Positions 3,659-47,524 of a stretch of DNA of 49,239 nucleotides are shown one piece after another. The notes below the pieces were generated by a model. That model was not told where the DNA came from. It made no database searches and was given only the letters and a program-made list of their open reading frames with translations. The stretch is from Hellea sp. (GTDB lineage Bacteria > Pseudomonadota > Alphaproteobacteria > Caulobacterales > Maricaulaceae). Location: assembly GCA_020627655.1 (NCBI GenBank), contig JAHDGM010000019.1, positions 1-49,239 on the forward strand, read 5' to 3'. Both the position numbers and the translations under genes were made by a program. Numbering within the stretch: the stretch's first letter is position 1; every line of letters starts with the position of its first letter.

Positions 3659-5974
3659 TCAGACTTTCTCCACAAAACTATCAATTACTTTTTTCTCACC
3701 GGCTTTTTCAAACGCTACGGTTAGCTTGCTCCCGTCGGCGGATTGAATTGTGCCATAGCCGAATTTTTGATGAAATATACGTTCGCCCACAGCAAAATCT
3801 GACTGTTTTTGAGGCGCATTACGCCGCCGGGCAGAACCGTCAATGACAGGGGCGCTTTGTTTGTTTCGTTGGTAGCGCTGCCATCCCGGGGAACTCCGAT
3901 TTCGATCAAAACTTGAGACGAAACTTTCGGATACTTCTTCGGCAAAGGCGCGGTGATCATAATATCCCGTATCGGATTCAGCTGTCACATGTTGAGGCGG
4001 CAACTCATCGATGAAACGCGATGGGATGCTGGATTGCCAGGATCCATAAACTTGCCGATTGGCGGCAAAATATATTTTGGCTTTCTCGCGGGCGCGGGTC
4101 AGGCCGACATAGGCAAGACGTCGTTCTTCTTCCAGTCCGGCCAGACCGTTTTCGTCAAGGGATTTTTGCGATGGGAAGACGCCTTCTTCCCATCCTGGTA
4201 GAAAGACCAGTGGAAACTCCAGGCCTTTTGCGGCGTGAAGTGTCATTAATGACACTTCATCTTCTTGAGGTCCTGACTCGATATCCAGAACCAGAGAAAC
4301 GTGCTCAAGATAGCCTTCAAGCGTATCAAATTCGCTGATAGCCTGCATAAGTTCTTTAAGGTTTTCGAGACGCCCTTGGGACTTGGCGTCCTTATTGTCA
4401 CGCCACATCTGCGTGTATCCGGACTCATCCAAAATACGCTCGGCGAGATCCACTGGATTAAGCGCTTTTGCATCATTTCGCCAGCGCTGAAGATCGAGCG
4501 TAAAGGCTTTGAGAGCCTGGCGGGCTTTACCGCGTATCTCATCTGTTTTCACCAATTCTTGCGTGGTTCGCTCAAGACTTTTACTCATGGCGCGAGAGGC
4601 CATTTGGAGTTTCTGTATGGTGGTTTGTCCAATGCCGCGTTTGGGAACATTGACTACGCGTTCAAAGGCGAGATCATCGGTCTCGGATATAACAAGGCGA
4701 AGGTAAGCATGGGCGTCGCGAATTTCCTGCCGTTCGAAAAAGCGAGGTCCGCCAATGACGCGATATGGCAGGCCAAGCGCTATAAATCTTTCTTCAAAGG
4801 CTCGCATTTGCCGTGACGCGCGGACAAGAACCGCAATGTGATTGTAATCACGCCCCCGGCTTTTCCAATTTTCAATTTCATTGGATATCAACCGTGCTTC
4901 AGCAGGGGCGTCCCAAACGCCTGTTACCGTGACGAGTTCACCGCCGTCATCTTCAGTCCATAATGTTTTACCCAGGCGGTCCTGGTTGGCTGAAATAAGA
5001 CCAGAAGCAGCACCTAAGATATTGCCGCTGGAGCGATAATTTCGCTCTAATTTCACAACCTTTGCACCGGGGAAATCTTTTTCAAACCGTAGTATGTTAT
5101 CGACTTCAGCGCCGCGCCATCCATAGATTGATTGATCATCATCGCCGACAACGCAGAGATTACCGGTTCCTTGGGCTAGAAGCCTGAGCCAGAGATATTG
5201 GCAGACATTTGTATCTTGATACTCATCCACTAGGATATATCGAAACTTTTGGTGATATTTTGCCAACACGTCAGGATATTTTGTAAAAATAGTAATATTG
5301 TGAAGGAGTAAGTCCCCAAAATCACAAGCATTTAAGGTTTTGAGACGCCCTTGGTAGATTGCGTAAAGCTTGCCCCCTTTACCTTCGGCGAAGCGGAAAC
5401 TTTCCTTGGCTGTAATTTTGTCAGGCGTTAGGCCCTTATTCTTCCAATTGTCGATTAGCGTGGCCAGATATCGCGGCGTCCATCGTTTTTCGTCAATATC
5501 TTCGCTTTTGATGATTTGTTTAAGTAGGCGGATCTGATCATCAGTATCTAAAATGGTAAAGCTTGATTTCAAATCGACCAGTTCAGCATGAATGCGGAGT
5601 ATTTTTGCAGCAATAGAGTGGAAAGTTCCAAGCCATGGCAGGCCTTCGACTGTCTGTCCAATCAGGTCGCTTACGCGCTCGCGCATTTCTCTAGCGGCTT
5701 TGTTGGTAAACGTCACTGACAGGATTTGTGATGAATAGGCCAGGCCGCCTGCTAAAATATGGGCCAGGCGGCAAGTCAAAACCCTTGTTTTGCCTGTTCC
5801 GGCACCTGCGAGAACCAAAACAGGGCCTTCTGTTGTCAGTACGGCGTCCTTTTGCTCTGGATTTAAGCCGCTTAGATAGTCGTTTTGTTCCGTCCGCATA
5901 GGCATAGCCTGCGCGGATAGAGGGCCGCGCGCAGGTGGCGGCGGGGCCGGACGGAAGGAATCAGGGCTAGACAT
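3659..5974 (-). CDS. uvrD: UvrD/PcrA-type ATP-dependent DNA helicase
   Basis: This is a superfamily 1A 3'-5' helicase that acts in nucleotide excision and mismatch repair. The 771 residues show Walker A AGAGTGKT (56-63), the VDEYQDTN box, GDDDQSIYGWRGA, ERNYRSS, TLHAAKGLEFP and YVGLTRARE, i.e. all helicase motifs in order. The C-terminal GERIFHQKFGYGTI segment is the Tudor-like domain found in PcrA/UvrD, which contacts RNA polymerase. The N-terminus has a Pro-rich leader of about 30 residues. It heads a minus-strand unit with the lipoprotein (1-base gap) and prmA. UvrD normally removes the UvrBC-incised oligonucleotide, which is notable because uvrB in this window is frameshifted. Confidence 0.95.
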   Translation of the reverse strand: MSSPDSFRPAPPPPARGPLSAQAMPMRTEQNDYLSGLNPEQKDAVLTTEGPVLVLAGAGTGKTRVLTCRLAHILAGGLAYSSQILSVTFTNKAAREMRERVSDLIGQTVEGLPWLGTFHSIAAKILRIHAELVDLKSSFTILDTDDQIRLLKQIIKSEDIDEKRWTPRYLATLIDNWKNKGLTPDKITAKESFRFAEGKGGKLYAIYQGRLKTLNACDFGDLLLHNITIFTKYPDVLAKYHQKFRYILVDEYQDTNVCQYLWLRLLAQGTGNLCVVGDDDQSIYGWRGAEVDNILRFEKDFPGAKVVKLERNYRSSGNILGAASGLISANQDRLGKTLWTEDDGGELVTVTGVWDAPAEARLISNEIENWKSRGRDYNHIAVLVRASRQMRAFEERFIALGLPYRVIGGPRFFERQEIRDAHAYLRLVISETDDLAFERVVNVPKRGIGQTTIQKLQMASRAMSKSLERTTQELVKTDEIRGKARQALKAFTLDLQRWRNDAKALNPVDLAERILDESGYTQMWRDNKDAKSQGRLENLKELMQAISEFDTLEGYLEHVSLVLDIESGPQEDEVSLMTLHAAKGLEFPLVFLPGWEEGVFPSQKSLDENGLAGLEEERRLAYVGLTRAREKAKIYFAANRQVYGSWQSSIPSRFIDELPPQHVTAESDTGYYDHRAFAEEVSESFVSSFDRNRSSPGWQRYQRNKQSAPVIDGSARRRNAPQKQSDFAVGERIFHQKFGYGTIQSADGSKLTVAFEKAGEKKVIDSFVEKV

Positions 5975-24996: not shown

Positions 24997-27112
24997 CTAT
25001 TTTTTCAATTCTTCGATTTGATCACGGAGTTCTGCCGCTAACTCAAATTCCAGATTTTCAGCGGCTTCAAACATTTGCTTTTCAAGGTCGGCCATGACAG
25101 CAATAATATTGTCGCCAAACTTTTCGCGGGCCTCTTCTAGTAAGCCACGCTGAGGACGGCCTGTTTTCCCAAATTTATTGGATTTTTTGTGGCTAAAGGC
25201 GGCCTGGTCATCTTCGGCAACTTGATCTCTGACCACGTCTGACACGCCGCGCAGAACAGTTTGGGGCGTTATGCCGTATTTTTCATTGTGAGCTATTTGA
25301 ATATCACGGCGGCGCTTGGTTTCGTCCATGGCGCGCTGCATAGAGCCGGTGATTTTGTCTGCATAAAGCACAACATGAGCCTCGCTGTTTCGCGCTGCAC
25401 GGCCGATAGTCTGAACGAGAGACGTCTCAGAGCGCAGGAAACCTTCTTTGTCGGCATCCACCGACAAAAGCACATTCAGGGATATCCAGTCCTTCACGGA
25501 GCAGGTTAATACCGATCAAGACGTCAAAAACCCCAAGACGAAGATCCCGAATAATCTCGATACGCTCAAGTGTATCAATATCGCTATGCATATATCTGAC
25601 CCGTATGCCCTGATCATGCATATATTCTGTCAGATCCTCGGACATTTTCTTAGTCAGAGTCGTCACAAGAGATCGATACCCATTGGCAGCAACTTTACGA
25701 ACCTGATCAATCACATCATCGACTTGAGACGCGCCGTTCAGTGATACGGGACGGATTTCAACGGGTGGATCAATCAGACCTGTGGGGCGAATGACCTGTT
25801 CGGTGAAGACGCCGCTGGTTTTTTCTAATTCCCAATCACCCGGTGTGGCAGAGACATAAATAGTCTGAGGCCGCATGGCGTCCCATTCCTCGAATTTTAA
25901 CGGGCGGTTATCAAGGGCGGATGGGAGGCGAAAGCCATGTTCTGCGAGTGTCGATTTTCGGCTGTAATCACCCTTACTCATGGCCCCTATCTGTGAAACT
26001 GACACATGGCTTTCATCCATGAATAAGAGGGCGTTATCGGGCAGATATTCAAACATAGTCGGCGGGGGTTCACCCGGACCACGTCCTGTTAAATAACGGG
26101 AATAGTTCTCAATACCTGTGCAGAAACCCTGAGCGGCCATCATCTCAAGATCAAATTCAGTGCGTTGGGCCAGCCTTTGAGCTTCCAGAAGCCGTCCCAT
26201 ATCCTCATATTCCTTGAGGCGATGATTGAGCTCTTTCTTGATGCCTTTGATCGCCGTTTGTAGGGTAGGACGTGGTGTTACGTAGTGGCTATTGGCATAG
26301 ATCCTCACAGCGTCCAGTTTCTGAGTGGTTTTGCCAGTTAAGGGATCAAAAGCTGTAATGGCATCAACTTCATCACCAAAAAAGTCAATACGCCATGCCG
26401 TATCATCATAGTGGGCCGGGAAGACTTCAATCACATCGCCGCGAACTCGGAAAGTGCCGCGCGTGAAAGCAAGATCATTACGCTGATATTGCAACTCTAC
26501 CAATTGTGCCATCAATTCGCGGGGGTCCTTGCTATCGCCTTTTGCTATATCAACGGTCATGGCGGTATAGGTTTCAACAGAGCCAATGCCGTAAATGCAG
26601 GAGACTGAAGCAACAATAATACAATCATCCCGCTCTAAAATGGACCGGGTGGCAGCGTGGCGCATACGGTCAATCTGTTCATTTACGGAACTGTCTTTCT
26701 CGATGAATGTATCCGTTCGCGGCACATAAGCTTCCGGCTGATAATAATCATAATATGATACAAAATACTCGACCGAGTTATGAGGGAAGAAACTTTTGAA
26801 TTCGGCATAGAGCTGCGCCGCAAGAGTTTTGTTATGGGCCATGATCAGAGCGGGGCGCTGGGTTTCCTCAATGATCTTAGCCATAGTGAACGTCTTGCCT
26901 GAACCCGTGACGCCGAGAAGAACTTGATTGCGCTCTTTATCTTTGAGGCCGTCTACAAGTTCAGCAATAGCAGTAGGTTGATCACCCTTGGGTTCATATT
27001 CTGAAACCAATTGAAATTTCTTACCGCCTTCGACCTTCTGGGGCCGTGCAGGGCGGTGGGGAACCCAGGCGGCAGGTGCCTCTTGAAAGCTTTGATCAGG
27101 TGAATTGGCCAT
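24997..27112 (-). pseudogene. uvrB: Excinuclease ABC subunit B, frameshifted
   Basis: UvrB is the damage-verifying helicase of nucleotide excision repair. From 27112 the frame reads normally: Walker A GVTGSGKT (67-74), the beta-hairpin [25 protein letters not shown], and [16 protein letters not shown]. At V550 (25463-25465) it shifts and stops near 25427. The rest is in the +1 frame: [22 protein letters not shown] (helicase motif VI) and the C-terminal UVR domain (FEAAENLEFELAAELRDQ) to 24997. Compared with the usual ECALVAxLDADKEG, only 7 bases lie where 12 are expected, a net loss of 5. A perfect 8-bp inverted repeat spans the lesion. It could be a real null allele or an assembly error; the remaining sequence is undecayed. 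Confidence 0.9.
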
Positions 27113-27498: not shown

Positions 27499-29154
27499 TT
27501 AAGTTCCTTGCTGAGTGAGCCAGCCTTTATAACTAGCGATACGCCCAATAATCGGTACATTTAAAGTAACATGGAAAATGAATTTGCCGTCTTGTTCGGT
27601 CTCATAGGTTTCCCCGCCCGGCAACAGAAATTGTGGCATTGGAATTCCAAGAAAAAACCATCGCCGCGGGGTGAAATAGAGGCGGTCACCTTTTATAGTT
27701 AGGGCCATGGCAAAGCTAAGGGCCCCGAAAGTTTCCATCATCAAATGTTGATTTTTGCCTGTGCCGGCTTTGAGGCGACTCTTAAATTTTTGTCCGTCAA
27801 AATTCCGTTCCCAAAGCTCGCCATTTTTACCGGGTGTGATTGTTACGGTAACGGGGAGGTTTCCGGATTTAACGCGAATTCCGGCTATCAAACCGGCCAA
27901 TTTTCCCAGTAAGTTGGAGGGGCCTTGCACTTCAGCTTGACCGCACCAGACTTGCGGCTTTGTTGGTGAATGAAGTGCGCGAACAGTTTTTGGTAAGTTA
28001 TTGAAAGTACTGCAAAGTATATGTTCAAATTCATGATATGATTGTTTGTTGGCGATCCGCCAGCCATAGCGAATATCCCTCGTGGCAAAAAATGTTTTGA
28101 AATTATCCAGTTCAACTTCCTTATCGGCTATGCGCGCGCCGGTTGCGGGCGTGTCACCCGCGGCCCATTTGGTAATTAATGCAGCGCAGGCCATGGAAGG
28201 AATAAAGGGCCCGTCTTCGCCTTCTGCGATGATGTGCCAGCTTTTTTGCATCTTTGGTCCGCGTAGTTTCACATAGAGACCACCGCGATGCTCACCATGG
28301 CTCAATCCGTTGAGCAGGCCATGGGCTGGCTTGGCCAGAAAGCTGAATTTTGGCAGGCGTAATAGAGCTCGAAATTTTGAAAATGCGACTAGGCAGCGAA
28401 GCAAATATTCTGGCTTTGTCCCGGCTCCGACCCAGCTGTCTTTTATAGAGGGATTATTCTCAGCAAAAACCTGAAGATCTGGAGCATCGACAAAAGCGAA
28501 TAGCCGGTTACGAAGCGGCATTGCGCCTGGCGGGGCGATGGTTTGCCGACGTGTATTGGTAAGAGCTTTGACAGGTTTCGACACGCCGTTCTCATAACGT
28601 GTAATGTTACTGCCAGCATAATCGAATATACCCTGAACCACGCTTAGCCCCATGCGTGCAAATGGAGAGGGCGCGACGCCGATTTCGATGCTTTGAACTT
28701 GCATATCTTTTTGAGCTTCTTTGAGAACGGCGCCGGTTAAGGCCGGGCAGGTCGACAATCCGCTAATGATCGTTAGGTTTTTCCGCTTTGCGGCCTGGTT
28801 AAATTGGGGGACGCGCATAACGAATTCCGCGCCATCAGCCAAATCCAGATAATGGACACCGGCTTTGAGGCAGGCCTTGATCACTGCATAGGAATTATCC
28901 CGCTTTAAATTAAATGGACCGGATGCGTCGACAACGATGTCTGGTTTATAGCGATTAAGCACCGGGCCAAGATCAAATTTATCAAGTTTGATAGGGATAA
29001 AACCTGCGGCGCTGCCTGATAATTGAGCGCAAAACGCCTCAGCTTTTGCGTAATTGCGACCGCCAATAAACAATGTGAGTTTTGAGTTATGGGCTAATAA
29101 TCGTGCTAATCGTCCCCCAAAAGCGCCATATCCGCCTATGATAAGGATTCTCAT
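27499..29154 (-). CDS. Saccharopine dehydrogenase-like NAD(P)-binding protein fused to DUF4166
   Basis: The N-terminus is a Rossmann fold with ILIIGGYGAFGGRLARLL (GxGxxG at G8, G10 and G13) and IVVDASGPF, as in the saccharopine-dehydrogenase NADP-binding family. The central ~250 residues follow that family's second domain. From about residue 385 the C-terminal part matches DUF4166 (NNLPKTVRALH, GELWERNFDGQKF, LYFTPRRWFFLGIPMPQFLLPG). It overlaps its upstream neighbour as ATGA. The reaction is unknown; this fold also occurs in lipid- and polyketide-modifying reductases. Confidence 0.86.
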   Translation of the reverse strand: MRILIIGGYGAFGGRLARLLAHNSKLTLFIGGRNYAKAEAFCAQLSGSAAGFIPIKLDKFDLGPVLNRYKPDIVVDASGPFNLKRDNSYAVIKACLKAGVHYLDLADGAEFVMRVPQFNQAAKRKNLTIISGLSTCPALTGAVLKEAQKDMQVQSIEIGVAPSPFARMGLSVVQGIFDYAGSNITRYENGVSKPVKALTNTRRQTIAPPGAMPLRNRLFAFVDAPDLQVFAENNPSIKDSWVGAGTKPEYLLRCLVAFSKFRALLRLPKFSFLAKPAHGLLNGLSHGEHRGGLYVKLRGPKMQKSWHIIAEGEDGPFIPSMACAALITKWAAGDTPATGARIADKEVELDNFKTFFATRDIRYGWRIANKQSYHEFEHILCSTFNNLPKTVRALHSPTKPQVWCGQAEVQGPSNLLGKLAGLIAGIRVKSGNLPVTVTITPGKNGELWERNFDGQKFKSRLKAGTGKNQHLMMETFGALSFAMALTIKGDRLYFTPRRWFFLGIPMPQFLLPGGETYETEQDGKFIFHVTLNVPIIGRIASYKGWLTQQGT

Positions 29155-29582
29155 GTGGCCAATCGTTTCTGTCTCATTTTACTGGCTTCGCGATAGGCAA
29201 CTATGCCGCAAATTGTTCCGAAGACCGTAAAGGTCATAAGTATCCCAATTGATGCGAGTGGGTCGAGGCCTAACAAAGGCGCGAAAACACTTAACATGAC
29301 TATGCCTGTAAGTAGACCAAGTACTGTCGATGTTATGGGGCCATTGAGCCCAAAAAGATTACCGAAGAACCAAATGGGGTGTCCGAACACCTGACAAGCT
29401 ATCAATGCAATCACAATTGCGTAAATCCAAATCAAGAAAACTGCAAAAAATATCCCTGGACCATATTGAAAGCTGCCTACCAGTAAGCCTGCTAAAGCTA
29501 AAACTGTGAAGAACATGCTTAAAACTGTAGACGCTCTAAGGAGGCCCATTGTTCGTTCTTCAAAGGTGAAATACAGTTTCAT
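29151..29582 (-). CDS. Four-helix membrane protein of the DUF4166 operon
   Basis: The 143-residue protein has four clear hydrophobic segments (about residues 13-37, 45-65, 84-104 and 108-130) and a basic C-terminal tail ([10 protein letters not shown]) that should lie in the cytoplasm. The ATG overlaps the previous stop as ATGA and its own stop overlaps the next ATG in the same way. No family or catalytic motif is recognised. It may anchor or transport the substrate of the linked enzyme. Confidence 0.85.
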
Positions 29583-30259
29583 ATGACGCCCTCATCACAA
29601 AACATGGCGCTTTGATTAACCAATATACCGAAAATAGGATTTTCCAATTTCAAAGTGAATTCGAACCAGCCGTCACCGTGGTCGCCATGCCCAACGGTTA
29701 GTTGGCCGGGTGTGAGCCATTTGGGCAAAGGAAAGCGAAACCGTCCGAAGCCAAGATAATATCGATCGCTCAAAAATAATAAGGCTTCGTTTTCGACCTT
29801 GAGTTTAAGGCTCATGCCAATGCCATAGCCAATATATTCAAATAGCCCTGTTGGTCCTGCGAATTGTTTTGTGCTGTGAATGACTTGGGGAAAGCCTTCT
29901 CGGCGGCCATATTGGCGAGTCCAGAACTGGCCGCCGCCTTTACGGTCTTCTGTGACGGTGACTATAGCGGCTTGATCTTCATTATCGGTGTCTAAGGGCA
30001 GGGGCGCGCCGATAATTCGAAGGATATTCGCCAGCCAAAAGCCGGCGCGGCTTAACTTTGTATACTCAATATAACCTTTATAGACGGCGCTATAACCCTG
30101 ACCGAGACGTTTGCTAAAGCGTTTCCGAACGCTTTCTGGCAGCTCAGCCCAGTTTTCTTTACCGAGCAGGCGTCGAAATCTTAAATCGACAAGAGGGCTG
30201 TCGCATGTAGATTCGCGCGCTACATACCGGTTTTCGATATGTTGCTTGTGAACCTTCAT
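29579..30259 (-). CDS. Stand-alone DUF4166 domain protein
   Basis: The 226 residues form one DUF4166 domain: [21 protein letters not shown] near the start, then [30 protein letters not shown], and [17 protein letters not shown] near the end. The same pattern recurs at the C-terminus of the enzyme encoded two genes on, so the operon carries two copies. A perfect AGGAGGATAAA ribosome binding site precedes the ATG, 9 bases after the regulator stop. There is no signal peptide. DUF4166 has no established biochemical role known to me. Confidence 0.86.
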
Positions 30260-34963: not shown

Positions 34964-35425
34964 ATGTTTTTATCAACCACGACCAATAATTTGGACGCGA
35001 AGGGCCGGATTTCAGTTCCGTCTGATTTTCGCGCCGTGGTTGGTGATGGTGGTTTTGACGGTATTGTTGTGTGGCCTAGTTTCGATGGTGATTACCTTGA
35101 GGGCGGTGGTATTGCCTTGCTTGAAAATTACATGCGGTCACTTGAAACTATGGATCATTACGACGAAGGCAGAATGGCTTTGCAGCGCGCCATTTTTGCT
35201 GAAAGTCGCAAGTTGGCTTTTGATGGGGGTGGTCGTGTGACGCTTCCGAGGGAACTGGCGGATTATGCGGGCCTAAACGGCACGGCGACTTTTGTTGGGC
35301 TGGGGCCTAGATTTGAAATTTGGAATTCGAAAAAATATGAATCACATATTGGTGATGTGCGGCGCTTGGCGCGCGAAAATCGGAACCGCCTTGTTTCGTT
35401 AAAGCGCGCCGGGGGGCAGGCGTGA
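34964..35425 (+). CDS. mraZ: Transcriptional regulator MraZ
   Basis: MraZ is a ring-forming DNA-binding protein that controls the dcw operon. The 153 residues contain two SpoVT/AbrB-like half domains, marked by DAKGRISVPSDFR and DGGGRVTLPRELADYAGL. AGAGGGG gives a good ribosome binding site. It heads the operon and its stop overlaps the rsmH GTG start (GTGA). Binding repeats lie just upstream. Confidence 0.95.
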   Translation: MFLSTTTNNLDAKGRISVPSDFRAVVGDGGFDGIVVWPSFDGDYLEGGGIALLENYMRSLETMDHYDEGRMALQRAIFAESRKLAFDGGGRVTLPRELADYAGLNGTATFVGLGPRFEIWNSKKYESHIGDVRRLARENRNRLVSLKRAGGQA

Positions 35426-36405
35426 AGCATTACCCCGTCATGCTCTCAGAGGTCATGGCGGCTTTGTCGCCTAAAGATGACGAGATTTATGTGGACGGCA
35501 CTTTTGGAAATGGGGGATATACGGAAAGTTTCCTCAAGGCTGCTAATTGCCAGGTTATCGCTTTGGATCAAGATCCTAATGTTACGGGTCGCATCGATGA
35601 GTTGTCGGAAGTTTATGATGGTCGCTTAAGTTTTGTGCAAACGCCCTTTTCAAAAATGGCTAAAGTGTTGACTGGGCAAAAGGTCGATGCAGTCATATTG
35701 GATATCGGTGTCTCCTCTATGCAGCTTGACCAGGCGGAGCGCGGTTTTTCCTTCATGCGGGCGGGCCCGCTTGATATGCGCATGAGGCAGTCAGGCCCTA
35801 CGGCCGCAGATGCAGTCAATAACATGCCGGAAAAAGACCTTGTTCGGATTTTCAAAGTTTACGGCGAAGAGCGCCGCGCGCGCCGGGCGGCGCAGTTTAT
35901 AGTGCGGGCGCGTAAAGAGGGGGCAATATCCACCACGGACTCCCTAGCGGACTTAATGGAGAGGGCGCTTGGGCGCACGGGAAAAATTCATCCGGCGACA
36001 CGTATTTTTCAGGCGCTGCGAATTTTTATTAATGATGAGCTTGGGGAGCTTTATGAGGGCTTATGCGCGGCTGAGCAGATATTGAAGCCTCAGGGGCGTT
36101 TGATTGTTGTCTCATTTCATTCGCTGGAAGATCGCATCGTAAAGAAGTTTCTGCGCCGCCGCTCTGAAAAGCCGTCCACAGGTTCGCGTTACGCGCCTGA
36201 GCTTGAGCAGAAGGCATTTGTTGGTAGTTTTGATATGTCAAAGCGCTCAGCTATTCTACCATTGGCACAGGAAACTTCTGAAAACCCCAGGTCGCGGTCG
36301 GCACGTTTGCGGTGGGCGATCAGGACAGATGCGGCAGCATTTGATAAGGATGAGTCATTATTGCCATCTGTGCCGCGTCTTGAAGATTACGGATGGGCTG
36401 CATGA
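35422..36405 (+). CDS. rsmH: 16S rRNA (cytosine-1402-N4)-methyltransferase
   Basis: RsmH methylates C1402 of 16S rRNA in the decoding centre. The SAM motif is YVDGTFGNGGYTESFL; other family motifs are VILDIGVSSMQLDQAERGFSF, PLDMRM, HPATRIFQALRIFINDELGEL and LIVVSFHSLEDRIVKKFL. It starts with GTG at 35422, overlapping the mraZ stop. Length 327 is normal. The next gene starts by an ATGA overlap. Confidence 0.96.
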   Translation: MKHYPVMLSEVMAALSPKDDEIYVDGTFGNGGYTESFLKAANCQVIALDQDPNVTGRIDELSEVYDGRLSFVQTPFSKMAKVLTGQKVDAVILDIGVSSMQLDQAERGFSFMRAGPLDMRMRQSGPTAADAVNNMPEKDLVRIFKVYGEERRARRAAQFIVRARKEGAISTTDSLADLMERALGRTGKIHPATRIFQALRIFINDELGELYEGLCAAEQILKPQGRLIVVSFHSLEDRIVKKFLRRRSEKPSTGSRYAPELEQKAFVGSFDMSKRSAILPLAQETSENPRSRSARLRWAIRTDAAAFDKDESLLPSVPRLEDYGWAA

Positions 36406-36749
36406 GGGCATATTATCCAGGATATGATGAGAAGACTGGCCGTACGGCAATATTCGTATTGTTTCTTTTAGGGGTTGTTCTGACGGTTGGTCTGTATTTT
36501 GTGAAAACGCGCGCGCAAACCGCCAAGGCTGAGGCGGGTCGGTTAGAGCGCCTTCTACGCGATGAGCAAAATGCGGTGAAGGTTTTGCAGGCGGAGCTTG
36601 CGCATTTAGAAAGCCCTGAACGTCTGGAAGAGCTCGCTATTGCCGAATTAGGTTTGTCCTCAATCAAGGTGGATAGGGTTATCACGGTGTCCGAGTTGTC
36701 TGAAACTTTTCCGTTGCGACGCGAGCCTGAACTAGAGCGTAGTCCATGA
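36402..36749 (+). CDS. ftsL: Cell division protein FtsL (predicted)
   Basis: I choose ATG 36402 (ATGA overlap with rsmH). The 115-residue bitopic protein has one membrane segment (TAIFVLFLLGVVLTVGLYFV) after a short cytoplasmic tail, then a periplasmic coiled coil (QTAKAEAGRLERLLRDEQNAVKVLQAELAHLESPERLEELA). Sequence identity among FtsL proteins is low; position between rsmH and ftsI and this layout support the call. It acts with FtsB and FtsQ to activate FtsWI. Confidence 0.88.
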   Translation: MRAYYPGYDEKTGRTAIFVLFLLGVVLTVGLYFVKTRAQTAKAEAGRLERLLRDEQNAVKVLQAELAHLESPERLEELAIAELGLSSIKVDRVITVSELSETFPLRREPELERSP

Positions 36750-38428
36750 CGGAGTATGGTGATATCGGAGGCCCTGTTCGCCGTCAGTTGAAGATCGCTG
36801 ACAGTGAGTTTGCGGCTGTGTCCGAGGGGCGTATCCGTATCCGAATTGGTGCCGCTATATTTATGTTTGCTTTGATCGTGGCGGTCATTCGTCTGGCTGA
36901 GGTGTCTTTGCTAAGTGGTTCAAAAGGCGGGAGTTTTTACAAATCTAATGAGTTTGTATCACGTGCTAATCTTGTGGATCGTAATGGAGAGCTTCTGGCG
37001 ACGACCCTTGAAACATATAGTCTTTATGCGCGGTCTAAATATATCTGGAATGCGGGTGAGACATCGCAGCAATTAGCATCTGTGTTTCCGGATATGTCTA
37101 GTGAGGCGATTCTTAACCGATTATCTCGCAAAGGTGATCAGCTTTTAATTCGCAGAGGTCTTACGCCTAAAGAAAAGCAGGCTGTGTTTCACTTGGGATT
37201 GCCCGGGATGGTTTTTCAAGCAGAGCCGCAGCGTGTATATCCGCGCGGAGCGCTCGCAGCGCATATTGTTGGGTTTACGGATGTAGATATGAAGGGCATT
37301 GCTGGAGCGGAGCGAGCTTTCGAAGAAGACTTATCTCAAGAAAACGCACCTGCAATGACTCTGTCAGTCGATCTGCGAGTTCAAAATGCGGTGGCGGATG
37401 AGCTGCAAAAGTCTTTAGTGCATTTTAAGGCTGATACTGGCGCTGCTATCGTTATGGATGTTCGCAGTGGTGAAATTCTCGCAATGGCGTCATTGCCCAA
37501 TTATGATCCGAACCGACCCGACACATCTTTGCCGCAAAACCTCTATAATCATGCCTCAATGTCGACTTATGAGCTTGGCTCAGTATTTAAACCCATCACC
37601 ATGGCGATGGCTCTGGAAGAAGGTGTGACTAATTTGACCGAGAAATTCCCCGTGCAAAATCCTTTGAAAGTTCGTGATAAGTTTATCCGGGATGATCATC
37701 CCAGCAAAACGCCCATGGCGATGCCTGAAATTTTGGCCGAAAGTTCAAACCGCGGGACTGCAATGATGGCTCTGCGGGTCGGGGGCGTGCAGCAACAGGC
37801 GTTTTTGAAGGAGCTCGGTCTCATGGACAGGGTGCCGATTGAATTAGTTGAGAGCGCCGCGCCGCAAGTTCAGCGTGAATGGCAGGATATCACCACAGTT
37901 ACAGTGTCTTATGGGCACGGTATTTCTGTAACACCGCTCGCATTGACAACAGCTATTGCAGCTTTGGTCAATGGCGGCGAATATGTAAAGCCGACGCTGC
38001 GCAAGCGAGATAGCGTTAATCCCGTTGAGAAGCGCCGCGTTATTACGAGGCAAACATCTGAAACTGTGCAAGATCTCATGCGCTATGTGGCAACACATGG
38101 TACTGGCAGAAATGCACGGGTCAAAGGATATGCTGTTATGGGTAAAACCGGCACAGCGGATAAGCCTTCAGTTGATGGATATGATGAACGGCGTCTTGTT
38201 TCATCTTTTATAGCAGCATTTCCATATGATGACCCTGCCTATGTTGTATTTGTGACCTTTGATGAGCCAAAGGCGGTTGAGGGGACTTATGGGTATGCGA
38301 CAGCGGGGTGGAACGCTGCGCCGACAACAGGGCGTATCATTGAGCGCATTGCGCCCATGTTAGGCGTGAGGCGGGACCCTGGACCGGCGACTCAAAGCCC
38401 ATTTTCTGGCGGGAGAGCAATGCGATGA
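36746..38428 (+). CDS. ftsI: Septal peptidoglycan transpeptidase FtsI (PBP3)
   Basis: FtsI crosslinks septal peptidoglycan with FtsW. The 560-residue class B PBP has a short cytoplasmic tail, one membrane helix around residues 34-52, a pedestal domain (LVDRNGELLATTL) and a transpeptidase domain with catalytic S279-V-F-K282, S336-S-N338 and K470-T-G472. Its ATG overlaps ftsL as ATGA and its stop overlaps murE. The protein looks complete. Confidence 0.96.
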   Translation: MTEYGDIGGPVRRQLKIADSEFAAVSEGRIRIRIGAAIFMFALIVAVIRLAEVSLLSGSKGGSFYKSNEFVSRANLVDRNGELLATTLETYSLYARSKYIWNAGETSQQLASVFPDMSSEAILNRLSRKGDQLLIRRGLTPKEKQAVFHLGLPGMVFQAEPQRVYPRGALAAHIVGFTDVDMKGIAGAERAFEEDLSQENAPAMTLSVDLRVQNAVADELQKSLVHFKADTGAAIVMDVRSGEILAMASLPNYDPNRPDTSLPQNLYNHASMSTYELGSVFKPITMAMALEEGVTNLTEKFPVQNPLKVRDKFIRDDHPSKTPMAMPEILAESSNRGTAMMALRVGGVQQQAFLKELGLMDRVPIELVESAAPQVQREWQDITTVTVSYGHGISVTPLALTTAIAALVNGGEYVKPTLRKRDSVNPVEKRRVITRQTSETVQDLMRYVATHGTGRNARVKGYAVMGKTGTADKPSVDGYDERRLVSSFIAAFPYDDPAYVVFVTFDEPKAVEGTYGYATAGWNAAPTTGRIIERIAPMLGVRRDPGPATQSPFSGGRAMR

Positions 38429-39861
38429 TGCTTTCTAAACTCATAGCGCCGCTTAGTCATACAGGCCGGAATGTTAATATCACCGAATTGTCTTGTGATA
38501 GCCGGACTGTAAGTGACGGTACGCTGTTCGCTGCTTTGCCCGGGACAGTCGCTGATGGCAGAGATTATATTGAAAATGCGATCGAAAATGGGGCTTCGGC
38601 TATTCTGTCAACTCCGAATTTGCCGCTGGATATGCCCTATGTGGCGAGTGAAAATCCGCGGCTGACCTATTCAAGATTGGCGAGCCGTCTTTATAGAGGT
38701 CAGCCCGAAACTTTAGTCGCTATGACTGGAACGAATGGTAAAAGCTCGACTGTAGAATTTTTACGTCAAATCTGGACTTATTCGGGCCTGAAAGCCGCGT
38801 GTTTCGGAACGCTGGGCGTTAGTTATGATGGCGGTTACATACCGCTTCATCACACAACGCCAGACGCTGTCGTTTTGCACCAGACATTATCCAAGCTCAA
38901 AGACATGGGTATTACACATGTAGCTATGGAGGCTTCCAGTCATGGCTTGAAGCAATACCGTCTGGATAGTGTGGATGTTACGGCTTCTGGATTCTCAAAC
39001 CTGACACAGGATCATTTTGACTATCATCCTGACGTTGAGGATTATTTTGGAGCCAAGGCGCGCTTATTCACAGAGCTTACCCCAGCAGATGCGCCGGTCG
39101 TTATTAATGTCAATGATGAGTACGGGCAGAAGCTAGCAAAGACTTGTGAGGCTCGTGGTCAGAAGGTTATTCGCGCGGGCTGGGCCGGTGAGGATATTCG
39201 CATTGATGAGGTAATGCCAAAATCCGCTAGTCAGAAAATTGACCTGATTGTCAGTGGTCGCCGCTATAAGGTCGAGCTGCCTTTAGTCGGCGAGTTTCAG
39301 GTTCTAAATGCTGTGGCGGCTTTAGGTCTCGCTCTGGAAACGGGGGTTGCTACTGATGTGGCTGTTGAGGCCTTAGGGCATCTTACGGGTGTGGCAGGAC
39401 GACTTGAAATGGCCGGACGAACTAAAGACGGCGCGCCTATACTTGTTGATTTTGCTCACACTGAAGACGGCCTGGACAAATTATTACGCAGTGTACGCCC
39501 TCATACGATGGGCCGAATGATAGTTGTTTTTGGCTGCGGCGGAGATCGTGATCCAGTGAAGCGTCCTAAAATGGGTGCTATGGCAGCTAAGCTGGCTGAT
39601 CATGTTATCGTGACAGACGACAATCCAAGAACGGAAAATGCCGCCGCTATTCGCAAAGCCGTTTTGAAAGGCTGCCCTGGCGCTGAAGAAATTGGCGACA
39701 GGGCGGCGGCTATCAGGCACGGTATTTCGCTATTGGGGGCTAAAGACTGCTTGATTATTGCCGGAAAAGGTCATGAGCAGGGCCAGATTATTGGCGATAA
39801 AGTCATCCCGTTTTCAGATGTAAATCAGGTCAAGCAAGCATTGATGGAGATAGCGGCATGA
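38425..39861 (+). CDS. murE: UDP-MurNAc-tripeptide synthetase
   Basis: MurE adds the third residue to the stem peptide in the cytoplasm. The 478 residues show the ATP loop AMTGTNGKSSTVEF (about 100-113), EASSHGLKQYRLD, NLTQDHFDYH, VDFAHTEDGLDKLL, and VTDDNPRTEN. The DNPR motif is the specificity loop for meso-diaminopimelate, so the wall is predicted to be DAP-type. Coupled by ATGA overlaps on both sides. Confidence 0.96.
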   Translation: MMLSKLIAPLSHTGRNVNITELSCDSRTVSDGTLFAALPGTVADGRDYIENAIENGASAILSTPNLPLDMPYVASENPRLTYSRLASRLYRGQPETLVAMTGTNGKSSTVEFLRQIWTYSGLKAACFGTLGVSYDGGYIPLHHTTPDAVVLHQTLSKLKDMGITHVAMEASSHGLKQYRLDSVDVTASGFSNLTQDHFDYHPDVEDYFGAKARLFTELTPADAPVVINVNDEYGQKLAKTCEARGQKVIRAGWAGEDIRIDEVMPKSASQKIDLIVSGRRYKVELPLVGEFQVLNAVAALGLALETGVATDVAVEALGHLTGVAGRLEMAGRTKDGAPILVDFAHTEDGLDKLLRSVRPHTMGRMIVVFGCGGDRDPVKRPKMGAMAAKLADHVIVTDDNPRTENAAAIRKAVLKGCPGAEEIGDRAAAIRHGISLLGAKDCLIIAGKGHEQGQIIGDKVIPFSDVNQVKQALMEIAA

Positions 39862-41243
39862 GGCAGCTTTGGACTTCGGAAGATGCCGCTAAGGCAACAG
39901 GGGGAGCCTCAAAGGGCAATTGGACAATTAGCGGTCTGTCTATTGATACGCGCAGCTTGCAATGGGGCGACTTATTTGTACCGCTTAAAGATGCCCGTGA
40001 TGGGCATGATTTTATTCCTCAAGCCCGCGCAGCGGGAGCCGGTGCTGTGATTTCTGAAAACCCTAATGAGCAAGCTCCTGCATTGATTGTCAAAGATAGT
40101 TTGCAGGCAATGCGTGATCTGGCCATTGCGGCGCGAGTGAGATCGCAGGCCAAGCGCATAGCCGTGACCGGCAGTGTTGGAAAAACCAGCCTTAAGGAAG
40201 CCATATCCGCCATATGCGCCGCCTCAGGGTCTACCCATAAGTCTCTGAAATCTTTTAATAATCATTGGGGCGTTCCATTGACATTAGCTACCATGCCGGC
40301 CGACACCAATTATGGTGTCTTTGAAGTTGGGATGAATCATGCTGGCGAGTTATCAGACTTATCGCCGCTGATATCGCCTCATGTCGCCGTCATTACAAAA
40401 ATTGCGCCCGCTCATTTAGCGCATTTCGAGAATGTGGATGCAATTGCGGCGGCTAAGGCTGAAGTGTTCGATGGCCTGATTGAGGCCGGTATCGCAGTAT
40501 TGAATCGCGATGATAGTTATTTCGATTTTCTAGCAAGCAAAGCTGCTTCGAAAGATGCGAAAATCATTAGCTTTGGTGAACATGAAGATGCCGATATTCG
40601 TATTTTAAATGCTGTTGCAGCGCCTGGAGACTTAAGGGCGACTTTGGAGATTTCTGGAGTTGAGTATAAGCTACACCTTCCGCTTGATGGTATGCACTGG
40701 ATACAAAATGCAGCCTGCGCCATAGCGGCCACGCAAGCCATAGGGATTGATATTGAAACGGCCTTAAAAGCATTGTCCGGCTTCAGGGCATTGCCCGGCC
40801 GAGGTGAGGCTGTGGATGTTAAACTCGACGGTAAAATATTCACCCTGATTGACGATAGTTATAATGCCAATCCAGAGTCCATGAAGGCTGCTATTTCCAC
40901 GCTTTCATCAAGGGCTAATGGCCGCAAAATTGCGGTGCTTGGCGACATGTTTGAACTAGGCAAAGACGAATTGGAATTACATGCTGCTTTGGCGGGGCCG
41001 TTGGAAGCAGCGGGCGTATCTCGCGTGATCGTTCTTGGAGAATGTATGCGTTCGCTAAAAGGCGCGCTGCCGCGTGAAATGCGCGGAGCCTGGTGTCGTG
41101 ACTGGTCTGGCGCTCTCGCGGCTTTGAGAAATGAACTGCAAGACGGGGATACCGTTTTGATTAAAGGATCTAATGCGACCGGGTTAGGGCACTTAGTTGC
41201 CGCTATCCGAAAAGAACAAAAAGGAGTCGCCGATGTTTTATGA
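39858..41243 (+). CDS. murF: UDP-MurNAc-pentapeptide synthetase
   Basis: MurF attaches D-Ala-D-Ala to the tripeptide. The 461-residue Mur ligase has the ATP loop [13 protein letters not shown] (103-115), [27 protein letters not shown], and [15 protein letters not shown]. It takes D-Ala-D-Ala made by the Ddl encoded at the end of the window. The 3' end overlaps the mraY start by 11 bases. Confidence 0.96.
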
Positions 41244-42339
41244 GTGGCTAGCCCCAATGGCTGAGGACTTTCAGTTATTTAATCTATTTAATTATATTAC
41301 ATTTCGGGTAGGGGGCGCCTTGATGACGTCTCTGTTGATTGCTTTTATCCTAGGGCCGCGCATGATCAATATGCTGCGCATGAAACAGGGCAAGGGACAG
41401 CCTATTCGTGAAGACGGTCCTGAAAGTCATATTATTCAAAAAGCAGGTACGCCTACAATGGGCGGCTTATTGATTTTACTTTCAATTGTAGTCTCGACTC
41501 TGCTGTGGGGGAATTTACGCAGTCCGTTTTTATGGACGGTGTTTTTAGTTACGGTCTCTTTTGGGGCAATAGGGTTTTATGATGATTATTTAAAAGTTTC
41601 CCGGCAAAACCCCAAAGGATTTAGCGGTAAAATAAAGCTCATCCTTGAATTTGCGATTGCGGCTTTTGCCGTTTACATTCTGACTCAGGCGTTTGAACCT
41701 AAAGCTGGCACGGCGCCGGGCTTTGAAACTGGGTTGGCGATTCCCCTACTTAAAGAATATTGGATCAATCTCGGTGTGTTCTTTATTCCCTTCGGCTGTT
41801 TGGTGATCGTTGGGGCTGCCAATGCCGTAAACCTCACGGACGGACTTGATGGTTTAGCTATTGTGCCGGTTATGATCGCCAGTATGAGCCTGGCTTTAAT
41901 TGCCTATCTGGTTGGGAACTATAATTTCAGTGAATATCTAGGCGTGCCTTTTGTCAAAGGGGGCGCAGAAGTCACAATATTCTTAGGGGCAATAGTGGGA
42001 GCGGGACTGGGCTTTCTTTGGTATAATGCTCCGCCTGCGATGGTGTTTATGGGGGATACGGGATCATTGGCGCTGGGGGGCGCTTTGGGTTCCACGGCGG
42101 TGGCTATTAAGCATGAAATAGTGCTCGCCATTATAGGGGGATTATTTGTCTTGGAGGCAGTATCCGTAATTGTACAGGTCGCGTCTTTCAAACTGACCGG
42201 TAAGCGGGTGTTTCGCATGGCCCCCATTCATCATCATTATGAAAAGAAGGGCTGGGCTGAGCCTACAATTGTTATCCGGTTTTGGATCATTGCGATTGTA
42301 TTGGCGCTCATCGGGCTTTCGACTTTGAAACTGCGGTAA
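41233..42339 (+). CDS. mraY: Phospho-MurNAc-pentapeptide transferase
   Basis: MraY makes lipid I by moving phospho-MurNAc-pentapeptide to undecaprenyl phosphate. ATG 41233 has AAGGAG upstream; an earlier in-frame ATG lies inside murF. The 368-residue polytopic protein shows [47 protein letters not shown] and [12 protein letters not shown], including the Asp pairs that bind magnesium. About ten membrane helices are expected. Confidence 0.96.
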
Positions 42340-42343
42340 AATT

Positions 42344-43789
42344 ATGATCAAGGCTGGAACATTTAAAGGTAAAACTATTGCGGTCTTCGGATTGGGACGC
42401 ACGGGTATTTCTACGGCGCTTTCTCTGAAGTCGGGCGGGGCGAAAGTCCATGCATGGGACGATAACTCGGAAACCGTGGAGCGAGCGAAGGAACAGGGTG
42501 TCCCCGTTACAGATCTCAGAGATGCGGACTGGTCTAAATTTGATGAAATCGTGCTTTCACCGGGTGTTCCGGATAATTTACCAAAGCCGCATTGGACAGC
42601 CGTCAAAGCACGTGAATTCGATGTGCCAATTATCTCTGATATTGAAATATTTGCGCGCGAGGTTATGGGCCGTGCTGAGGAAAACCGTCCCAAGATTATC
42701 GCTATTACCGGGACGAATGGAAAATCAACAACGACGGCCCTTATCGGACATATTCTAAGGGCGTGTGGTAAGGATGCTCAAATTGGCGGCAATATCGGAC
42801 GCGGTGTTCTTGACCTGGACCGGATGCATAAAGGAACCTATTATGTCCTTGAACTCTCCTCATATCAGCTAGAGCGCACAAATTCATTGTGCGCCAATGC
42901 AGCGGTTTTTTTAAACTTGACGCCGGACCACCTTGAGCGTCACGGGGATATGGATCGCTATGAAGCTGCTAAGCGCCGGATATTTTTGAACCAAACGGAA
43001 GATGATACAGTGGTCATCGGTGTGGATAACCCTGAAGGGCGGCGCATTTGCTCAGAGCTTAAAGTTTCCAATGGTCGCCGTATTGTCCCAATTTCAGGGC
43101 GCAAATCGCTGGGCTTTGGGGTGTGTGCTATCAAAGGCAAGCTCTACTGCAATCAAAAAGATAAAGTTGTCGAAGTTGCAAATCTGAACAAAGCACAGGC
43201 TTTGGAAGGTATGCATAACTGGCAGAACGCTGCGGCCGCTTATGCTGCCGTCAGGTCATTAGGGATTAATCCGCAAGCCATTGGTGATGCCATTCTGAGT
43301 TTTCCAGGGCTTGCTCACCGTATGGAAACTGTCGCCAAAATCGTTAAAGTTCGTTTTGTTAATGACAGTAAGGCCACCAATGCTGATGCTGCCAAGCAGG
43401 CGCTGACGGCCTATAATGATATTTTCTGGATCGCTGGAGGCGAGGCGAAATCTGAGGGTATCGACCCACTGGAGCCTCTGTTTAAGAATGTTCGCAAGTC
43501 CTATTTGATTGGAGAGGCGGGCCCAAGATTTCATAAAACATTGAGTAAGGCCAAAGTAGATAATAAAATTTCCGGCACGCTGGAAATGGCAGTGCTTTGC
43601 GCCCTACGGGATGCTTTAAACTCAGACGCAAAAAATCCCATAGTTTTATTATCACCAGCTTGTGCAAGTTTTGACCAATTTAAAAATTTCGAAGTCAGAG
43701 GGGATGCCTTTAGAACTCAGGTCCAGCAGCTTGACGAAATGTTCCAACGGGAAAAAGAAACCATGGCAAAGCGGGGGAGCGCCGCTTGA
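42344..43789 (+). CDS. murD: UDP-MurNAc-L-Ala-D-Glu ligase
   Basis: MurD adds D-Glu to UDP-MurNAc-L-Ala. The 481 residues begin with a UDP-binding Rossmann-like fold (TIAVFGLGRTGIS), carry the ATP loop ITGTNGKSTTTAL (121-133), ELSSYQLE, NLTPDHLERHGDMDRYEAAK and a C-terminal FVNDSKATNADAA and SPACASFDQF. It starts four bases after mraY. The stop overlaps the TTG start of ftsW. Confidence 0.96.
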   Translation: MIKAGTFKGKTIAVFGLGRTGISTALSLKSGGAKVHAWDDNSETVERAKEQGVPVTDLRDADWSKFDEIVLSPGVPDNLPKPHWTAVKAREFDVPIISDIEIFAREVMGRAEENRPKIIAITGTNGKSTTTALIGHILRACGKDAQIGGNIGRGVLDLDRMHKGTYYVLELSSYQLERTNSLCANAAVFLNLTPDHLERHGDMDRYEAAKRRIFLNQTEDDTVVIGVDNPEGRRICSELKVSNGRRIVPISGRKSLGFGVCAIKGKLYCNQKDKVVEVANLNKAQALEGMHNWQNAAAAYAAVRSLGINPQAIGDAILSFPGLAHRMETVAKIVKVRFVNDSKATNADAAKQALTAYNDIFWIAGGEAKSEGIDPLEPLFKNVRKSYLIGEAGPRFHKTLSKAKVDNKISGTLEMAVLCALRDALNSDAKNPIVLLSPACASFDQFKNFEVRGDAFRTQVQQLDEMFQREKETMAKRGSAA

Positions 43790-44928
43790 TTACGCGGACT
43801 ATATCGGCTGCCCGCACGGACCGTTCTCCGCTTTATGAATGGTGGCGCAGTGTCGACCATATATCCCTTGCATTTTTTGTCTGTCTTCTTGGCACCGGGT
43901 TAATCTTGTCTATGGCGGCGTCGCCAGCGGCAGCAGCACGTATGAGTGTGGATAACCCATTTCACTTTTTATATCGGCATGCGGTTTTTGTGTTGATGGG
44001 CTTTGGCGGCGCGGCAGTTCTTTCTTTTTTCACAACTGTAAATGCGCGGCGCATAGCAGTATTGGCTTTGCTGGGATGTTTTGTGCTCTTGGTTATGGTG
44101 AAATTTGCCGGACATGAAGTTAAAGGAGCGCAGCGATGGTTGCGTATTGGGGGATTCTCTTTGCAGCCTTCAGAATTTGCCAAGCCGGCTTTCATAGTTT
44201 TTGCAGCGTGGATGTTTTCTGTTCAAAAACGTGACCCAAATGTGCCGACAGTGCCTATTGTTTTTGCTGCCTATTTGCTGCTCGTTTTCTTTCTCATCCA
44301 ACAGCCGGACTTTGGTCAGTCCTTCCTGCTAACGCTTTGTTTTGCAGCGGTGTTTTTCTTTGCAGGGCTGTCTTTGGGCTGGATGTTGTTCCTGATGATC
44401 GGATCGGGAATAGCGGCTTTTATAGCTTATATTTTTATGCCGCATGTACAGGCCCGCATTCAAAGGTTTTTAAGCCCGGCAGGGGATGATAATTATCAGA
44501 CAGAGCGCGCATTAGAGGCCATTAGCAGCGGCGGTTTTTTTGGCCGGGGACCGGGTGAGGGTGATGTAAAATACTCACTGCCGGATGGGCATACGGATTT
44601 CATTTTTGCCGTAACAGTTGAAGAGTTCGGATTTTTAATCTCGGTCTTTATTATCGTATTGTTGGCGGGTTTTGTTATTCGGTCCTTCCGTAATGCGCTC
44701 AAACTCAATGACTATTTTTGTCAGTTAGCCGTAGCTGGTCTTGCGACAATGATCGGTATGCAGACGATCATCAATCTGTTTGTGAATCTGAATATGGCAC
44801 CGCCAAAAGGTATGACATTGCCCTTTATCTCTTATGGGGGGTCTTCCATGTTGGCGTTGTGTTTTACGGCAGGCCTTATATTAGCCTTTACGCGTCGCCG
44901 TCCCGGCGCATATGGTTTTGGGGACTAA
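43786..44928 (+). CDS. ftsW: Septal peptidoglycan glycosyltransferase FtsW
   Basis: FtsW is the SEDS-family polymerase that pairs with FtsI. It starts with TTG at 43786, overlapping the murD stop (TTGA), with GGGGGAG as ribosome binding site. The 380 residues carry about ten membrane helices, the motifs GAQRWLRIGGFSLQPSEFAKPAF and PPKGMTLPFISYGGSSML. The rare TTG start with overlap may limit its level relative to MurD. Confidence 0.95.
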   Translation: MITRTISAARTDRSPLYEWWRSVDHISLAFFVCLLGTGLILSMAASPAAAARMSVDNPFHFLYRHAVFVLMGFGGAAVLSFFTTVNARRIAVLALLGCFVLLVMVKFAGHEVKGAQRWLRIGGFSLQPSEFAKPAFIVFAAWMFSVQKRDPNVPTVPIVFAAYLLLVFFLIQQPDFGQSFLLTLCFAAVFFFAGLSLGWMLFLMIGSGIAAFIAYIFMPHVQARIQRFLSPAGDDNYQTERALEAISSGGFFGRGPGEGDVKYSLPDGHTDFIFAVTVEEFGFLISVFIIVLLAGFVIRSFRNALKLNDYFCQLAVAGLATMIGMQTIINLFVNLNMAPPKGMTLPFISYGGSSMLALCFTAGLILAFTRRRPGAYGFGD

Positions 44929-45003
44929 AAAGATACCTCAATTTTGCCTAGATAGTGCCTATTTCTAATCTTAAGGCCAAACTGGATTATATTCGGAGAT
45001 ATT

Positions 45004-46086
45004 ATGCCTAGACTTTTACTGGCTGCAGGCGGAACGGGTGGGCATATGTTCCCGGCGCAGGCTCTGGCTGAATGCTTAAAAGCTGAGGGTTGGGAGATAG
45101 CTATGCTGACCGATGCACGCGGTCAAAAACATGCCGGGCGCATTCCGGCAGACCCTATTATTGAAGTTGACGCGGCTTCTATTTCGCCGCGTAAACCGAT
45201 TCAAGCTATTGGCGGTGCTATACGTTTAACACGCGGGGTGAAAACCGCTAAGAAATTTATAAGGTCATGGAAACCTGACATAGTAGTAGGCTTTGGTGGT
45301 TACCCGGCTTTTCCGGCCATGCGAGCGGCTCAAAGCCTTGGCATTCCCACTGTGATACATGAACAAAACGCCGTACTCGGGCGGGTCAATAGGGTGTTCG
45401 CAACAAAAGCCGATATAGTTGCTTCCGGATTTGAAGCGTTGTCCAGACTTCCGTCTGGCGCCAACCATGTCTGCACGGGAAATCCGCTCAGGGCTCAGAT
45501 TATTGAAGCTATCCCTGAAACCTATAAGGCCCCTGACGGAATTATTCACATCCTGATTGTTGGAGGTAGTCTTGGTGCCAGATTAATCAGCGAGGTTGTG
45601 CCTCAGGCCATTGCGGGTTTACCCAAAACTCTTCGTGAACGACTTCATGTCGTTCAGCAGACCCGCGCCGAAAATCTTGATATTGCGCGATTGACATATG
45701 AAGAGGCCGGGGTGGCACATATTTGTGAACCTTTCTTTTCTGATATTGAAAAACATTTGGCAGCTACGCATTATGTCATAGGCCGCGCAGGTGCTTCGTC
45801 AGTCTCGGAAATTGCAGCTATGGGTAAGCCAAGCCTGCTGGTTCCGCTGGCTATTGCTATGGATGATCATCAGACTGCCAATGCTTTAGCATTAAAAAGC
45901 CTTGGGGCTGCCGATATTTTGCCTGAATCCGAGTTTACGCCAGAGCGCGTGAAATCTAGTTTGGAGGCAAGACTAAATGATTCGATCTGGCTTGAGACAG
46001 CGGCCAATGCTGCGCGAAGTGCCGCCCGCACAAATGCCACCACTGAACTGGCCAAATTGGTCGGGTCATTTGCGAAACCTGCCTGA
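45004..46086 (+). CDS. murG: Lipid II synthase MurG
   Basis: MurG adds GlcNAc to lipid I on the inner face of the membrane. It has the N-terminal [12 protein letters not shown] loop (about 7-18), [44 protein letters not shown] and the UDP-GlcNAc site [33 protein letters not shown] ribosome binding site precedes the ATG. The 75-base gap after ftsW is the longest in the cluster and could hold a secondary promoter. Confidence 0.96.
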
Positions 46087-46096
46087 GAGGCAAATT

Positions 46097-47524
46097 ATGG
46101 TAAAACCTGATGCGGCCAAGGCTATGGCCACAAAAGTTCCTTTTGATACGGGGCCAATCCATTTTGTGGGTATTGGCGGGATTGGCATGAGCGGTATCGC
46201 AGAAGTTATGCTCAATCTTGGCTATACGGTTCAAGGATCTGACCTGCGCGAAAATCCTAATGTGAAGCGGCTGCGTGATCTTGGCGCAACTATATTTATT
46301 GGCCAGAAGGCGGAACAGGTTCGCGGCGCCGGTGCTATTGTCATGTCATCCGCTATTAAAGCCGATAATCCGGAGCTTGTCGAAGCCCGCACACGGTCAA
46401 TTCCGGTTGTCAAACGCGCTGAAATGTTAGCTGAGCTCATGCGCCTGAAATGGGCTGTAGGTGTGGCCGGTACCCATGGCAAGACGACAACTACAACCAT
46501 GATTGCCGCATTGCTGGAAGGCGGTAATTTAGATCCGACAGTGATAAATGGCGGCATCATTAATGCCTATGGCTCTAACGCTAAGCTTGGTCTTGGTGAT
46601 TGGATGGTGGTAGAAGCCGATGAAAGCGATGGGTCGTTTTTAAAGTTATTTCCCACTGTTGCTGTGGTTACCAATATTGATCCAGAGCATATGGAGCATT
46701 ATGGCGATTTCGATACACTGAGAGCCGCCTTTACGACTTTTGTGGAAAACCTCCCATTTTATGGGTTTGGAGTTCTTTGTATTGACCATCCAGAAGTACA
46801 GGCGCTCGTGTCAAGGATTCAAGACCGCCGTGTGATTACATACGGCTTTAATCAACAAGCAGATGTCCGCGCCGAAAACCTACAGCTGGAGTCAACAGGT
46901 TCTCGTTTTGATGTGGTCTTTAGAAATGTAGACGGGATTGAGGATAGATGGGATGATTTGTTTTTGCCCATGGCTGGACGTCACAATACTCAAAATGTTC
47001 TCTCAGCGATTGCAGTTGCCCGCCGGTTGGGACTCTCCCAAGCTCAGGTACGAGCCGGGCTGGATAGTTTTGGCGGTGTAAAACGACGCTTTACACATGT
47101 TGGAGAATGGAATGGGGTCACAATTGTTGACGATTATGGCCATCACCCAGTTGAAATTGAGGCTGTATTGCAGGCCGCCCGACAAGTGACAGATGGTCAG
47201 GTTCATGCCGTGGTTCAGCCTCATCGTTATTCACGCTTGTCGGATTTGTTTGAAGAGTTTTGTACCTGTTTCAATAATGCCAATCAGGTTTACGTGGCGG
47301 ATGTCTATGCTGCGGGAGAAAGTCCTATGGAGGGCATTAGCGGCCCGGCCTTGGTTGAAGGTCTGATGGCGCATGGGCATCGTAATGCCCAAAGCATAAC
47401 TCAAAAGACATTAGCTCAAAGCCTGAAACCTAACTTGAAACCAGGCGATCTTGTGGTGTGCCTGGGCGCAGGTGATATAACCTTTTGGGCTGCAGGATTG
47501 GCCGATGCGCTGGAGAAAACATAG
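46097..47524 (+). CDS. murC: UDP-MurNAc-L-alanine ligase
   Basis: MurC starts the stem peptide. I use ATG 46097 ([13 protein letters not shown]) with GAGAGG upstream and a 10-base gap to murG; an open frame beginning at 45977 lies inside murG and is not used. The 475 residues show [18 protein letters not shown], the ATP loop [14 protein letters not shown] (122-135), [24 protein letters not shown] and [12 protein letters not shown]. Confidence 0.96.

Follow-up and report, generated by a model that had tools for sequence, protein, structure and literature searches.

A five-base gap private to one draft assembly splits uvrB at an inverted repeat derived from conserved codons

The stretch of Hellea sp. 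DNA analysed here (49,239 nucleotides in full, hereafter the window) carries on its minus strand a uvrB gene that is divided over two reading frames. UvrB is excinuclease ABC subunit B, which plays a role in excision repair. The features at this locus are as follows.

25427 to 27112, minus strand: uvrB 5′ frame of 561 aa; the homologous part spans 25460-27112 and is followed by an out-of-frame tail to the stop at 25427
24997 to 25461, minus strand: uvrB 3′ frame (UvrB and UVR domains), put out of register by the frame break; read mechanically, it opens at a GTG at 25497
25460 to 25461, minus strand: junction left by the 5-base loss; its place, which may shift by one base with the identity of the lost letters, comes from five same-genus relatives and 51 of 53 alignments
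25461 to 25468, minus strand: arm reading CCGACAAA on the plus strand, the F-V-G codons of the 5′ frame; exact letters in 24 of 117 intact sites
25455 to 25460, strand not assigned: spacer CATCCA, five bases shorter than in the five readable same-genus relatives
25447 to 25454, minus strand: arm reading TTTGTCGG on the plus strand, the A-D-K codons of the 3′ frame; exact letters in 4 of 117 intact sites

The NCBIfam profile searches showed that the 5′ frame alone scored 828.8 bits against TIGR00631 (profile positions 1-515), above the curated cut-off of 750.1 bits, and that positions 518-658 of the same profile were covered by the 3′ frame. The model NF003673 was divided in a similar way, with positions 1-515 in the 5′ frame and 517-652 in the 3′ frame. 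In the Pfam search, the UvrB (PF12344) and UVR (PF02151) domains were found in the 3′ frame only, and Helicase_C was cut at profile position 87 of 110. All the domains of UvrB (TIGR00631) are present across the two frames together; the window differs from the known protein in that five bases are missing in the helicase C-terminal domain, because of which the remainder of the gene is out of frame, and the helicase C-terminal, UvrB and UVR domains are not joined in one continuous frame. A first-pass annotation of this DNA had placed the break after V550, with a net loss of five bases, and both statements proved exact: homology in the minus-strand 5′ frame breaks off after that residue, the rest of the gene lies in 24997-25497, and the site has 7 bases against 12 in each of the five readable same-genus relatives. 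In these relatives (G001, G003, G005, G006 and G008) the genus motif reads ECAFVG[I/L]LDADKEGFL. Aligned with them, the window stays in register through the glycine codon's GG and is back in register from the last part of the leucine codon and the aspartate codon onward; what is left of the spacer can still be read as the last bases of the Leu codon, Asp and the beginning of Ala. At the uvrB lesion five bases are gone, in one clean loss, from the spacer of an inverted repeat that derives from codons.

When a 501-base query spanning the lesion was compared with 61 genomes from the same genus, family and order, 55 gave a match and 6 none. Among 53 relatives, a count that leaves out the window's own row and two rows of genome G002, the target span was exactly five bases longer at the lesion in 51; the others were longer by two bases (G023, whose uvrB is an open frame of 777 aa) and by six (G121). 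A near-exact copy of the junction, with 0-9 extra bases allowed, was present in 1 of 137 family genomes, namely the window's own, a result that shows only the absence of near-identical strains because the flanks had to match exactly. Of the ten genus genomes, the window's own is broken, five read through, G002 has ten Ns, and three (G004, G007 and G009) have no uvrB over the site; the uvrB 5′ part shares 85-93% protein identity with the five same-genus UvrBs. Searches of a plasmid collection, and of viral contigs by pattern, gave no match, and among the best 80 of 587 matching stretches in a contig search the top identity was 75%. In a quick tree, the 33 rows of the window's family clustered together, separate from the named rows. 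The uvrB of a contig titled Nocardioides marinus (L055) stood beside Roseobacter in the quick tree, and this public genome is likely contaminated or mislabelled. The results established that the five-base gap is private to one assembly. This privacy, with 51 of 53 relatives five bases longer, argues for an assembly or consensus error and against a real deletion.

The uninterrupted relatives also bear on programmed +1 frameshifting, in which ribosomes would slip at the site and yield a full-length UvrB minus two residues. Such a shift would rejoin the two parts of uvrB, both of which are undecayed, but the product would be short of two residues in a highly conserved motif, and no conserved frameshift signal is expected because in all five readable relatives of the genus the gene is one uninterrupted frame. 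This candidate was rejected on account of the uninterrupted relatives and the two missing motif residues, and we regard it as extremely improbable.

The perfect 8-bp inverted repeat TTTGTCGG/CCGACAAA around CATCCA had been reported previously, and its letters, its coordinates and its place at the lesion are all exact. In the sense strand, the arm at plus-strand positions 25461-25468 reads TTTGTCGG and represents the F-V-G codons, and the other arm consists of the end of an alanine codon, an aspartate codon and a lysine codon. The F-V-G arm was found letter for letter in G001, G003, G005 and G006, and with one base different in G008; the A-D-K arm varies at synonymous sites and is exactly CCGACAAA in none of these five relatives. 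Analysis was then extended to the 117 distinct intact sites among the compared loci, a number from a search pattern that required an intact motif and could not count broken sites. Henriciella marina (L042) has TTTGTCGG/CCGACAAG, pairing at 7 of 8 positions with the frame intact, and the contig titled N. marinus has a 7-bp version of the repeat with partly different letters; in the other 115 intact sites the pairing runs in the same register were of 1 to 6. With F-V-G and A-D-K fixed here, and with codon usage taken from 23 window ORFs, a perfect 8-bp repeat would arise in 1.2% of cases, and an A-D-K arm that matches the existing F-V-G arm in 6.7%. Over the whole window, 20 perfect 8-bp stems with loops of 3-11 bases were counted, whereas 15 dinucleotide shuffles gave 7.4 (sd 3.2), and uvrB holds just one of them, the repeat at the lesion. 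Terminators may account for part of the window's excess of such stems. The repeat at the lesion is only mildly unusual, and it is what the codons of the conserved motif yield now and then.

The first-pass annotation had interpreted the site as the product of a quasipalindrome template switch, in which the polymerase would have copied one arm, made an imperfect repeat perfect and dropped five bases when it returned. In doing so it took the residue after V550 to be alanine, and the GG of the arm therefore seemed new; the genus has glycine there, which makes TTTGTCGG normal coding sequence. The interpretation could not be upheld for the F-V-G arm, which is already present in intact relatives (24 of 117 sites), an observation on which the rewriting of this arm by template switch was rejected. 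Moreover, the A-D-K arm encodes the expected residues, and the loss sits in the spacer, where nothing was copied. Neither a copy of the opposite arm nor an inverted spacer was found as the source of changed bases at the lesion; the 5-base spacer loss is the demonstrable change, and homogenisation of the arms is not demonstrable.

Quasipalindrome mutation is described, in part of one publication (PMC7202029), as leading to a more perfect repeat, and a portion of another (PMC8604942) gives arm homogenisation or spacer inversion as its products. The present case resembles the mutation class, as treated in that part of PMC7202029, in that the uvrB frameshift coincides with a short perfect inverted repeat; it differs in that both arms consist of ordinary codons belonging to a conserved motif, the bases lost are spacer bases, and no copying can be demonstrated. 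On the other side, the current repeat is perfect over 8 bp, and CCGACAAA in the A-D-K arm, absent from all five readable same-genus relatives, has a chance of 6.7%. The alignment of relatives for the ancestral arms gave a divided answer: the F-V-G arm was there already, which disagrees with a switch, while the absence of CCGACAAA is compatible with a synonymous rewriting of the A-D-K arm, as the relatives (72-79% DNA identity) stand too far off to reveal the immediate ancestor. An intact relative with the same repeat had been named as the observation that would speak against the switch, and H. marina comes close to it with 7 of 8 bp, short of the full 8. Taken together, a template switch is very unlikely, and the fuller scenario, in which a deletion of 5 bases in uvrB, guided by a hairpin, would just have deprived this alphaproteobacterium of NER (nucleotide excision repair) and the switch would have left its trace as a synonymous homogenisation of the A-D-K arm, is a shade less likely still.

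The uvrB 3′ part was compared with those of three relatives. The window shares 91.4% protein identity (139/152) with G001, 90.7% (137/151) with G006 and 90.1% (137/152) with G008, and the three relatives share 87.7-89.6% among themselves (G001-G006 87.7%, G001-G008 88.3%). The differences from the window by codon position were 13/4/85 (G001), 17/2/76 (G006) and 13/5/89 (G008), so that third positions account for most of them. Against these three relatives, neither protein identity nor the codon-position counts suggested that selection on the 3′ part has been relaxed, and the earlier statement that the rest of the gene is undecayed holds, the 3′ part faring no worse against the relatives than those do against each other. 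Because the gene is undecayed, the event is either very recent or not real, in agreement with the earlier wording "recent or an artefact". As for the partner genes, uvrA and uvrC are each open in one frame, uvrD/pcrA is open in the window (3659-5974), mutS is open, and a photolyase-family gene is predicted. Signs of a pseudogene in an NER-less lineage were not found, uvrA, uvrC and uvrD being open and the uvrB 3′ part not relaxed.

These observations weigh on the choice between an artefact and a real, very recent 5-base deletion, which would have arisen by an ordinary replication or end-joining error, would have cost UvrB its C-terminal part, and would leave the strain or a subpopulation without NER. 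The lack of decay in uvrB and the open uvrA, uvrC, uvrD and mutS favour an assembly or consensus error, and the unrelaxed 3′ part and the open uvrA, uvrC and uvrD tell against the real deletion. The latter agrees with the presence of the photolyase-family gene and with the position of the missing bases, which begin at the arm/spacer boundary of a possible hairpin. It also gains from the search for a second uvrB, which was carried out over the whole assembly as the first-pass annotation had proposed and found none in a draft that is itself incomplete. The second-best UvrB match, on contig C57, was rejected as a copy, as the similarity was 28% identity over residues 165-272 only, within an open frame of 1172 aa; this frame is presumably mfd, a guess on our part.

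The soundness of the window was assessed next to this. A tblastn search with the proteins of relatives gave matches over about 17.9-34.7 kb, and uvrB was the only split gene among those hit. Of 40 window ORFs scanned with Pfam (ORF 47525-48436 left out), 6 had no match and several had partial-profile matches, and the sole neighbours resembling pieces of one protein were the two uvrB frames; DUF4166 occurs in two nearby ORFs (window 27499-30259) and is complete in each, one of them being fused to a saccharopine-dehydrogenase NADP-binding domain. No further split gene was seen among the testable ones, and hence the contig is not generally error-ridden. The genes to either side of uvrB are colinear with those of G006, and identity is similar on both sides of the lesion for the two nearest relatives; together these ruled out a gross chimera at the lesion. 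Misassembly via words common to several species was without support, since the lesion does not lie at the peak of sharing within uvrB (14-mer sharing with other loci had a mean of 1.15 in the lesion bin versus up to 5.67 elsewhere in the gene). The colinearity, the absence of another split gene among the testable ones and the position off the shared-word peak count against an assembly or consensus error, and the first two support a real deletion.

Elsewhere in the window, a division and cell-wall cluster occupies 34964-47524 (mraZ, rsmH, ftsL-like, ftsI, murE, murF, mraY, murD, ftsW, murG and murC), the gene names being assigned from Pfam family and order and each gene being an open ORF. An IS1595-type transposase lies at 201-1073, near the left end of the contig.

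The draft as a whole is imperfect. The window's genome comprises 89 contigs and is listed as 100% complete with 1.03% contamination. The gene rpoC was not found in it by TIGR02386 or PF04998, both of which were positive in 14 of 14 control genomes, so that a housekeeping gene seems absent from the draft despite the 100% listing. Contig C65 (4,373 bases; L131:1-999) carries the 3′ part of a second uvrA at its very start, and against the full uvrA, which lies on contig C29, identity is 72% in DNA and 82% in protein; the find could be a stray contig of a relative or a true second uvrA. We infer that the draft is a metagenome bin. Furthermore, uvrB fails in other assemblies of the genus. The uvrB of G002 (L006 3100-3420, contig C66) has its ten Ns at the same motif; the segment after the Ns is best matched by gammaproteobacterial loci by a small margin (L091 81.5% versus the same-order L162 79.9%), and the sequence beyond that segment is 76.5% identical to the window, which suggests that the G002 gene is likely a chimera. 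In G004, only 58 bases of the uvrB 3′ end are matched before the contig stops. Among the matches listed, six partial uvrB matches start no more than 6 bases from a contig start (G008, G117, G111 twice, G081 and G058). Both the missing rpoC with the second uvrA end and the failures in G002 and G004 are in favour of an assembly or consensus error at the lesion.

Since the mirrored letters on either side of the gap are normal coding sequence, the most likely explanation is either an error of assembly or a recent deletion of the ordinary kind. We give slightly better than even chances to an assembly or consensus error and consider it somewhat likelier than a real, very recent loss of uvrB, which stands as a tenable, tentatively held alternative. 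Under the favoured reading, the five bases would have been dropped during draft assembly or consensus calling and not in the living cell, and the organism's own gene would be an ordinary intact uvrB. Against this, the five bases are tied to no specific assembly mechanism, and most of the evidence is equally expected under a real recent deletion. The case resembles the gene-fragmenting assembly errors of draft genomes treated in part of PMC12007338, in that a conserved gene has a private break without decay in an incomplete draft; it differs in that the subject of that paper, so far as this part goes, is long-read assemblies.

The gap in uvrB matters little unless it is confirmed to be real. 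Two cautions follow from it: conserved codons can give rise to a palindrome at a lesion as a by-product, and gene loss should not be concluded from a broken frame in a draft genome. If the deletion is real, the predicted photolyase-family protein would remain to the organism, and the locus would present a snapshot of the first step in the loss of NER, with the partner genes still intact.
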